A stretch of DNA of 41,692 nt, taken from NCBI GenBank assembly GCA_030669595.1, contig DAOVDG010000003.1:1-41692 (forward strand), read 5' to 3'. Position numbers and translations under genes: made by a program. This document shows, one piece after another, positions 30,351 to 32,820 of this stretch. Every line of letters starts with the position of its first letter. Position 1 is the first letter of the stretch. Below the pieces are notes generated by a model. That model saw only the letters and a program-made list of their open reading frames with translations, was not told the origin of the DNA and made no database searches. This stretch comes from Candidatus Thorarchaeota archaeon (GTDB lineage: Archaea; Asgardarchaeota; Thorarchaeia; Thorarchaeales; Thorarchaeaceae).

Positions 30351-30656
30351 ATGAAGCAGGCCTTCGCTACCGTGACTGAAGGGATTGATGTAATTGAGAG
30401 CACTGACCAGGAAAAGGTGGTTCATAGGCGCAGGCTGGTCGATGCTCTGATTGTCAAGGCGGAGGTGCTTATGGAGGTGAGGCATTCCTCTGGTACCACT
30501 GCAGACTACGGGTATGTCAGAGGACTACTTAGGAGAGCAAGGGAGATTGTCTTGGCCTTGAAATTCTACGATAAGCTGGGCAAAGAAGATCAGAAGACCA
30601 TGAATCGCATAGACGCAATTCAGACTAAGCTTGAATCTATGGATACCGGGTTTTAA
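30351..30656 (+). CDS. Helical protein, probably the displaced C-terminus of the LRR protein
   Basis: 101 residues from ATG 30351, all helical and TPR-like (FATVTEGIDVIESTDQEKVVHRRRLVDALIVKAEVL and RGLLRRAREIVLALKFYDKLG). The frame is open from 30288, just after a TGA at 30285. The upstream codons look coding but contain no start codon. Starting at ATG 30351 would cut through a helix (LTRFYLEQRRMKQAFATV). The most likely reading is one protein of LRR followed by helical repeats, broken by a -1 shift near 30290, either a sequencing/assembly indel or a real mutation. No classical slippery heptamer is present. Confidence 0.65.
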   Translation: MKQAFATVTEGIDVIESTDQEKVVHRRRLVDALIVKAEVLMEVRHSSGTTADYGYVRGLLRRAREIVLALKFYDKLGKEDQKTMNRIDAIQTKLESMDTGF

Positions 30657-30843
30657 TCAGACAGCAGGCAATACCCCAAATGCGATTAATTCGATTCGCA
30701 CAGAAACAATCTTGCAGCCATCTCATATCTATACCTAAGGGTTTTTTGGAAAATCCTGGGATTTTGAATTCATCTAGATGTATCGCACATGACGCGAAAG
30801 GGAAGTCCTTAAGAGTCGTTCAAGCTGAGCTAGAGTGAATTCA

Positions 30844-30921
30844 GGGCGCGTAGTCTAGTCTGGATAGGGCGCCAGCCTTCGAAGTTGGACGTCCCAGGTT
30901 CAAATCCTGGCGCGCCCGCCA
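30844..30921 (+). tRNA. tRNA-Arg(TCG)
   Basis: The acceptor GGGCGCG pairs with CGCGCCC (30911-30917), discriminator G73, CCA encoded. D stem GTC/GGC, anticodon stem CCAGC/GTTGG around CTTCGAA (anticodon TCG), variable ACGTC, T arm CCAGG-TTCAAAT-CCTGG. No intron. Its last 19 bases are duplicated at 32487-32505. Confidence 0.95.
30903..30921 (+). repeat. Direct repeat copy 1 (3' end of tRNA-Arg), attachment-site-like
   Basis: AATCCTGGCGCGCCCGCCA, from the T loop to CCA of tRNA-Arg(TCG), identical to 32487-32505. Integrases of archaeal elements commonly use exactly this part of a tRNA gene. Confidence 0.75.
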
Positions 30922-31160
30922 TTCTCATTTTCAATTTCTCCTCTTCCTACCATCAATGGAGCCCTGTAGAATGAGTCGAATGACAGAAAAAAGCCAGAAT
31001 TCCATCTCTTCGATGTTGCATTTCATACATCCCGCAAGAAAACCGATGCTGATAGCGATCACATCGAGTGTAAACTAACGGGCTTTTTCCACAAAGCTGC
31101 TTTCTTCGGACAAATTATTAGCAACAGGGTACAAATCACGGTTGAGGGGAAGGTAAACCA

Positions 31161-32396
31161 TTGATTGCGATTCCGTATCCAGTGAAACATGCAAGGTGGT
31201 TGAAAGTCCTAGTTTATTCGGTCATTCTTCTATGCTCTATTGTCGGGACAGTTAACCTGACCGTTTCTCTGGAAACCTACGATAGAGAACCAGTGGCAAT
31301 CTGGGAGGAACTGGAAAATCCGTGGCGCGATACAGGCGATGCTCTCTACGACATTGCCTTCCTTAATTCATCTCACGGGTGGGCAACTGGAAAGGGAGAT
31401 GTTGGGACAGGGAGAGGGGAAGGTGGCTGGGGAGTTGTGCTACAAACCAAGGATGGAGGAGATACGTGGACCCTATCCTATTCGAACCGGAGTATTCATC
31501 CTAACTTCATTGAGATTGTTGATTCCGATACGGTATGGATTGCTACAGCCAGAGGGCTCCTGAACACGTCTGATGGTGGTAGAACATGGTATATGGACCA
31601 CGCAGAACCTGGGTCCTATCGCACCGTGGCATTCAAGAACTCCACGCATGGTTGGACAAGTAGAAAAAGGGAACTCCTCCATACTGTAGATGGAGGGCAC
31701 ATCTGGAAGCTTGTCGAATCCTGGTCCTTTGATACAAGGCTCTACCAGATTCGTTTTGTGGGAAAACAACTGATGTGGGCTGGGGGGTATGATGGAATAT
31801 TCCACAGCCAAAATGGGGGACAGACTTGGACTCAGCAATCCAATGAAACAGCCCTTGGTCTTGCAATAGTAAGTGAAACTGAGGGATGGGCTTGTTACTT
31901 AGACCGTCATCTCTCACACATGATAGATGGACAATACTGGATTGAAAAGTATCCACCCAGTAGAGTGTCCTATTACTGGGCGCCTTCGCACTATACGGAT
32001 CTAGAATTCATCAACTCCAAACAGGGTTGGATGGTGGGGTCTATCGTGGGTGTCGCTTATACTCCAGATGGGGGATTGAACTGGTATGAACAAAAGCTAC
32101 CCCCGCGCTGGAGTGGTCTAAAGGCTGTAGACTTCATCAATGAAACACATGGCTGGGCTGCTGGATGGGATGGAAACATATACCGTACAAGAACAGGCAA
32201 TCAATATGGTAAAAGGTTGATAGGGGAGGGGTACGTGATAGAGTTCATGATGGGAGGTAGGGTTATTCCAAGGAGCACTGTGGTATGGGTTATTCTGGTT
32301 GCCTTTGGTGGAATTGCATCACTTCAATTGCTTGAGAGATATCTGGAAAAGAGAAAAGCTGAGCCAATTCAAGCATCCCTGAGGATTCAATGGTAG
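31161..32396 (+). CDS. Secreted/membrane beta-propeller protein (Ycf48/BNR-like)
   Basis: A 411-residue extracellular protein: an N-terminal membrane helix or signal anchor (about 13-35), then about six repeats of the form DIAFLNSSHGWATG...ILxTxDGGxTW (for example LQTKDGGDTWTL, LLNTSDGGRTWYM, FHSQNGGQTWTQ, AYTPDGGLNWYE), and a C-terminal membrane helix (about 372-393) with a basic tail. The DGGxTW repeats match Ycf48/BNR/sialidase-like propellers. Several N-x-S/T sequons fit an extracellular domain. The TTG start is supported by GGGGAAGGT 7 bases upstream. It stands alone between tRNA-Arg and the duplicated tRNA tail. Partner and ligand unknown. Confidence 0.85.
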   Translation: MIAIPYPVKHARWLKVLVYSVILLCSIVGTVNLTVSLETYDREPVAIWEELENPWRDTGDALYDIAFLNSSHGWATGKGDVGTGRGEGGWGVVLQTKDGGDTWTLSYSNRSIHPNFIEIVDSDTVWIATARGLLNTSDGGRTWYMDHAEPGSYRTVAFKNSTHGWTSRKRELLHTVDGGHIWKLVESWSFDTRLYQIRFVGKQLMWAGGYDGIFHSQNGGQTWTQQSNETALGLAIVSETEGWACYLDRHLSHMIDGQYWIEKYPPSRVSYYWAPSHYTDLEFINSKQGWMVGSIVGVAYTPDGGLNWYEQKLPPRWSGLKAVDFINETHGWAAGWDGNIYRTRTGNQYGKRLIGEGYVIEFMMGGRVIPRSTVVWVILVAFGGIASLQLLERYLEKRKAEPIQASLRIQW

Positions 32397-32486
32397 GATT
32401 GTGTGCCGAAAGGTTAGCAATCTAAATATCAATAGTCCCCAATAGACGAAAGATAAGAGTAGAGTCATCCCTAATCTAAACCCTTG

Positions 32487-32505
32487 AATCCTGGCGCGCC
32501 CGCCA
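32487..32505 (+). repeat. Direct repeat copy 2, orphan tRNA-Arg 3' end
   Basis: Exact 19-base copy of 30903-30921, ending in CCA, with no tRNA body in front of it. This is the expected appearance of the second attachment site of an integrated element. Confidence 0.75.
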
Positions 32506-32508
32506 CGC

Positions 32509-32727
32509 CTAATTCTTGCCTAATTTCTTGGTCCAAACTTCAATGAAGTACTCAAGAGATCTGTCGAAGGTTTTCTCGGCTTCAGGTGGAAAGAGGCATC
32601 CTGGTAGCTCACGGTGCGCCCAATGAAACTCTATACACTCGCAACAGATTCCCTTTTTTGAACATCCGGGATAGGTGCAACCACACCGCTCTTTGTTTCT
32701 CTCGACGTTACAGATTCTGCCAGTCAT
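32509..32727 (-). CDS. Cysteine-rich DUF6485 family protein
   Basis: 72 residues with a metal-binding pattern: ICNVERNKERCGCTYPGCSKKGICCECIEFHWAHRELPGCLFPPEAEKTFDRS. Seven of its eight cysteines cluster within 28 residues, followed by His and one more Cys. This fits DUF6485, a small archaeal/bacterial family of unknown function, probably binding zinc or Fe-S. I start at ATG 32727 since family members begin just before the first Cys; the frame is open to 32754. It is divergent from the kinase-fold gene at 32821. Confidence 0.8.
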   Translation of the reverse strand: MTGRICNVERNKERCGCTYPGCSKKGICCECIEFHWAHRELPGCLFPPEAEKTFDRSLEYFIEVWTKKLGKN

Positions 32728-32820
32728 TTCTAGCCCCGTCAGTGCCTTGAGCAAGCCGGTTAAAACATAATTGGTCTGGTCGGCAGGCTAATAGACAGGA
32801 ACAGCCAATCTGCTATCGTC

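Follow-up and report, generated by a model that had tools for sequence, protein, structure and literature searches.

Mobile insertion cassettes consist of IS ends around a passenger gene and are mobilised in trans. Attachment sites of integrating elements in archaea are preferentially located at the 3' end of tRNA genes, with lengths that can go down to 8-13 bp (PMC8371274). Tyrosine-integrase elements such as SSV, pNOB8 and their relatives leave a direct repeat of the tRNA 3' end, with an intact tRNA on one side and the chromosomal flank following the other copy, and the corresponding empty sites occur (PMC8371274). At the tRNA-Thr(GGU) locus of Caldiarchaeum, an inserted element with an 813-bp ORF of uncertain family lies with a tRNA fragment and a complete, intron-bearing tRNA (PMC3293823), and among the Asgard archaea, aloposons and proviruses of Heimdallarchaeum have been described at tRNA sites (PMC8813620).

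Here, we analysed a stretch of 41,692 nucleotides from a Candidatus Thorarchaeota genome (GCA_030669595.1), referred to as the window, in which the tail of a tRNA-Arg(TCG) gene recurs downstream of a gene for a propeller protein. The two repeats are probably the attachment sites of an old site-specific insertion at the 3' end of the tRNA, into which an IS5-type cassette was later inserted and from which sequence was subsequently deleted.

The tRNA-Arg(TCG) repeat and the site in related genomes

The tRNA-Arg(TCG) gene was located by ARAGORN at 30844-30921 (plus strand) and represents a complete, attL-like copy. Its last 19 nucleotides, from the T loop to the CCA (AATCCTGGCGCGCCCGCCA; 30903-30921, plus strand), recur exactly at 32487-32505 on the same strand, at a spacing of 1584 nt, and no tRNA body was found upstream of this second, attR-like copy in the window. 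The second copy is followed by native chromosomal flank (CGCCTAA..., the end of the DUF6485 gene; 32509-32754, minus strand), and throughout the family DUF6485 natively lies to the right of the tRNA. Within the 2.17-Mb assembly, AATCCTGGCGCGCCCGCCA occurs at just these two sites. The longest match of tRNA-Arg(TCG) to the rest of the window was 19 nt, compared to a maximum of 13 nt when the window was resampled 60 times under a dinucleotide model and to 11-13 nt for the three other tRNAs of the window, so the repeat is far above chance expectation.

An empty site was directly observed in MAG_9 (G006), where left flank, tRNA and right flank align to the window with one copy of the repeat, the right flank of this single tRNA being the one that follows repeat copy 2 in the window. 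In the distant Thorarchaeota G007, G009, G013, G015, G020 and others, the tRNA directly adjoins the DUF6485 gene with no insert, and the family conserves the gene order aIF2B-like gene, (LRR gene), tRNA-Arg, DUF6485, kinase-like gene. Because of the tRNA-DUF6485 adjacency in the distant members, the ancestral state of the family was likely an empty site. The sequence-only reading of this stretch had described an exact tail copy without a tRNA body, unexpected by chance and mirroring attL/attR, and had suggested looking in relatives for an empty site with one copy; the exact copy, the missing body and the excess over chance were borne out by ARAGORN, the repeat match and the resampling, and the single-copy sites in G006 and several distant Thorarchaeota support an att-like insertion with duplication of the tRNA tail.

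Occupied sites were found in three relatives. G004 and G005 share the arrangement of the window, with a degenerate second repeat copy. In G003, a left arm, a molybdopterin oxidoreductase gene and a right arm with a degenerate second repeat copy were identified; this gene was pieced together from contigs C155 and C210 (127 nt shared), with each junction lying within one contig. The left arm (30922-30958 in the window), as judged by the alignments, is common to G003, G004 and G005 and missing at the empty site of G006. The interior of the insert therefore varies between the molybdopterin oxidoreductase gene in G003 and the propeller in the window genome (G000), G004 and G005.

On the backbone tree, G006 was nested inside the occupied group and, therefore, its empty site may reflect precise loss or local exchange instead of a never-occupied state. 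G006 as outgroup, under a constraint that did not force G002 outside, was rejected with codon positions 1+2 (AU p = 0.016) and not with all positions (p = 0.106). A strict reading in which G006 was never occupied is disfavoured by the tree, albeit not firmly given the latter value.

The propeller gene and its IS5-type cassette

The sole plausible gene between the repeat copies encodes a Ycf48/BNR-like propeller of 411 aa (31161-32396, plus strand, TTG start), which matches the Pfam family PSII_BNR/Ycf48 with an E-value of 4.5e-18. As the protein has hydrophobic stretches near both ends, it is predicted to be membrane-anchored, and 'surface propeller' is a fair name. Pairwise dN/dS values of 0.34-0.73 and intact reading frames suggest that the gene is under mild constraint.

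The propeller also occurs away from the tRNA. On contig C17 of G006, it was directly observed inside a ~1.6-kb element with ~90-bp terminal inverted repeats (TIRs) at 94% identity on both sides, flanked on both sides by an 8-bp target duplication (TGTTAGCA); there is no tRNA repeat at this location and no transposase inside the cassette. The same IS5-type ends and 8-bp target duplications were found in 145-bp MITEs of G006 (L099, L101, L102, L103). On contig C156 of the window genome, 8 bp separate the right end of a second propeller copy from an IS5-family element that has the terminus GGGCCCTGTGGAATAA. With small changes, this terminus bounds the MITEs of G006 and the IS5-family element of C156, as in the cassette, and the transposase of the latter element matches NF033579 above cut-off, its gene being cut by the contig end. 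No IS-type TIRs were found around propeller paralogues of ~40% identity in other genomes, and for this reason the cassette form of the propeller appears to be limited to the close clade.

In the window, the left TIR of the non-autonomous cassette lies at 30959-31048 (plus strand, the start at about 30959 being approximate), with 93% identity to the left end of the G006 C17 element. The gene is followed by a 3' remnant of the cassette (32397-32458), as aligned to the G006 C17 element; the right TIR has been lost, which leaves this copy with one TIR. The alignment to G006 C17 stops at 32458 in the window genome, likewise in G004, and near there in G005. The adjoining right arm (32459-32486) matches G003 C210 and consists of the end of the former molybdopterin oxidoreductase gene (GAG TAG) and a spacer to the repeat; the match begins at the molybdopterin stop codon and continues past it, and thus the cassette is fused to this stop codon at the right junction. 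On the propeller tree, the three tRNA-site copies (G000, G004, G005) were split from two free copies at 100% support. Given this split and the closely shared truncation of the three propellers, a single insertion and a single deletion would explain all three loci. The alignments indicate that the propeller reached the tRNA site separately, on a transposase-less IS5-ended cassette, and not via the tRNA repeats.

The preferred reading of an old att-type insertion followed by a cassette would thus comprise several steps. An element entering tRNA-Arg(TCG) at its 3' end would have restored a complete tRNA at the left boundary (attL), with the last ~19-20 nt of the gene remaining at the right boundary (attR), and the insertion would formerly have carried the molybdopterin oxidoreductase gene that G003 retains. 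In the lineage of the window genome and G004/G005, an IS5 transposase acting in trans would have placed the non-autonomous IS5-type propeller cassette at a distance of 37 bp from the tRNA, and a deletion would afterwards have removed the right end of the cassette along with the older molybdopterin gene. Direct observations in this scheme are the repeats, the empty sites, the shared arms, the alternative gene in G003, the TIR cassette with its target duplication in G006, the matching IS5 copy and the truncated right end; we infer a tyrosine integrase as the agent of the first step, the sequence in which the steps took place and the movement of the cassette in trans. No integrase gene was found among the ORFs between the window repeats, in the one-gene insert of G003 or in any occupied copy, and because of this the insert is described as a decayed remnant working like a tRNA-integrated element. 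Two integrase matches were obtained in the window genome (C41, C64), neither beside a tRNA detected on the fetched stretches of these short contigs, and the tails of the four window tRNAs had no other long copies on them. A search of viral contigs for the 19-nt repeat gave no match.

The earlier proposals on the insert fared differently. That it holds a single surface Ycf48/BNR-like gene and no integrase was confirmed by the ORFs and the Pfam match, and a decayed element is supported by the differing interiors and the lack of a remaining integrase. The propeller is consistent with the other proposal, a cassette moved in trans, although IS5-type TIRs, and not the tRNA repeats, form its mobile ends. 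The propeller is also not shared by all relatives, with G003 carrying the molybdopterin gene and G006 being empty.

TnpB elements at the tRNA and other possible origins of the second copy

In related genomes, the same tRNA gene is occupied by elements of another kind. In G004 (C91, L047:423-7494), a ~7-kb element splits tRNA-Arg and encodes a protein of ~1,556 aa divergently from a TnpB-family gene; no Pfam, NCBIfam or PADLOC match was obtained for the protein, and no match for the TnpB in phage records. One end of the element carries an inverted, intron-bearing tRNA-Arg, and at the other a truncated native tRNA follows right after an omega-RNA-like end. Relatives of this protein pair recur across the family. 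Elements of this kind were found at tRNA-Arg in the distant Thorarchaeota E44_bin77 (L143:11084-19721), G010 (L183:7070-9457) and G022 (L195:865-7933, with a different TnpB), each locus having a complete tRNA in inverted orientation as well as fragments of tRNA, and also at tRNA-Ala(TGC) in G016 (C84, L186:1816-9350), with an inverted recoded tRNA on the left and the native 3' half on the right. These loci indicate that tRNA-Arg(TCG) is a repeated target of TnpB elements with an inverted recoded replacement tRNA. Just 5' of the window tRNA, a second scar (30631-30802, plus strand) is 88% identical (152/172) to the G004 element, in a part that comprises the tRNA leader and the terminal portion of the ~1,556-aa gene.

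The 3' region of TnpB is conserved, with a fold in which 14 pairs show two-sided changes in one or more of eight sequences; it runs into the truncated tRNA in the tRNA-site cases, and other copies abut non-tRNA sequence. In 11/11 members of the main TnpB subfamily, the usual RuvC-II glutamate was apparently missing, with the motif judged by eye. Because the omega-RNA-like 3' end runs straight into the truncated native tRNA, the tRNA gene itself is the putative guide. Over the first 14 nt from a guide start of our own assignment, the replacement tRNAs differed from the putative guides at 5, 5, 3 and 5 positions (G004, E44_bin77, G010 and G016, respectively), a divergence that is suggestive in these four cases; the window tRNA equals the putative guides of the three tRNA-Arg elements at 14/14 nt, but as the guide is a piece of native tRNA by construction, only the divergence of the replacement copies is informative. 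We tentatively propose that TnpB elements of a new kind, which pair TnpB with the unclassified ~1,550-aa protein and are guided by the tRNA gene itself, might home into tRNA-Arg(UCG) of Thorarchaeota, that the inverted recoded tRNA might escape this guide, and that the window tRNA, with the end of such an element in its 5' flank, might be a scarred target. If this holds true, essential tRNA genes would be sites of homing by RNA-guided nucleases, a possibility that lends itself to direct testing. The TnpB lead is the part most deserving of specialist attention.

Some further features were observed at these loci. A 101-aa ORF upstream of the window tRNA (30351-30656) ends in the residues ESMDTGF, compared to ESMDVGF at the end of the 1,556-aa protein of G004; the ORF had no relative in the fetched loci and no Pfam or NCBIfam match. 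Inverted tRNA-Arg(TCG) genes without an element occur at the conserved tRNA-Arg/DUF6485 locus in AMARA_8, HM6_B34, AB_25, OWC3, OWC5 and G017 (loci L139, L142, L145, L149, L152 and L090) and could be footprints of TnpB elements. In several Thorarchaeota, tRNA-Arg(TCG) carries intron-like inserts at differing positions (L047:430-539; L081, L086, L089). At the empty site of G006 (L050:10070-10147), the 3' half of tRNA-Arg (anticodon stem CCTGC/GCAGG) is nearer to the replacement tRNA of G004 than to the tRNA of the other relatives, possibly due to an exchange.

The presence of such elements raises another explanation for the second repeat copy, namely that it is the native tRNA stump of a TnpB element that inserted with its own replacement tRNA and was later lost. 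TnpB elements do leave a truncated native tRNA by the right flank in G004, as well as at tRNA-Ala in G016, and the scar 5' of the window tRNA is of this element type. However, the replacement tRNAs were inverted in 5/5 cases examined, whereas the window tRNA is direct, its native 5' flank is present in G003 and G005, and the sequence before the second copy shows no omega-RNA-like end. In addition, G004 has both the tail with the arms and the TnpB insertion, which cut the tRNA to their left, and the tail is therefore older than the TnpB insertion. We consider an origin as a TnpB stump unlikely.

Improbable to a higher degree is an exchange of single-gene cassettes at the tRNA via the 19-nt repeats, in the manner of an integron-like site served in trans; the molybdopterin oxidoreductase and the propeller would then be alternative cassettes. 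Different single genes between the same arms in G003 and the window genome, and none in G006, would be expected from such swapping, but elsewhere the propeller resides in a TIR cassette without the tRNA repeat. Furthermore, the retention of the molybdopterin gene end in the right arm of the window points to insertion and deletion rather than clean exchange and largely contradicts a swap. Finally, descent of the second copy from a tandem tRNA gene or from a partial duplication at the locus, the former already named as an alternative in the sequence-only reading, agrees with the confinement of the repeat to the tRNA 3' end but is very improbable, as the sequence before the second copy is not a tRNA body in 4/4 genomes, the molybdopterin gene lies directly before the tail in G003, and the empty relatives have a single tRNA and no tandem tRNA-Arg.

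Comparison with known systems

The best explanation for the window is a decayed insertion at the tRNA that was later taken over by an IS-end cassette, both of which are of kinds already known. It provides a worked Asgard case of the reuse of a tRNA insertion site, in which the cargo of an att-type insertion was probably replaced by an IS-end cassette and emptied sites occur in relatives. Like the aloposons and proviruses of Heimdallarchaeum, these are Asgard mobile elements at tRNA genes; the tandem giant proteins of aloposons (3,000-6,000 aa) have no counterpart of that kind among our findings (PMC8813620). The element-broken tRNA of Caldiarchaeum finds its nearest match in the TnpB insertion of G004 and not in the window repeat (PMC3293823).

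With the archaeal tyrosine-integrase elements, the window shares the direct repeat of the tRNA 3' end, the intact tRNA on one side, the chromosomal flank after the other copy and the empty sites, but its insert lacks an integrase or other mobility gene and its interior is a single gene (PMC8371274). The repeat of 19 nt is shorter than the 40-50 bp usual in Sulfolobales and within the archaeal range (PMC8371274). The propeller cassette, in turn, resembles mobile insertion cassettes (MIC elements such as MIC231; e.g., PMC3913671) in its IS-type inverted repeats around a passenger, the absence of a transposase, the target duplication and the matching IS in the genome. It differs from them by its IS5-family ends with ~90-bp TIRs, its Asgard host and its Ycf48/BNR-like passenger, and by the truncation of the copy in the window.
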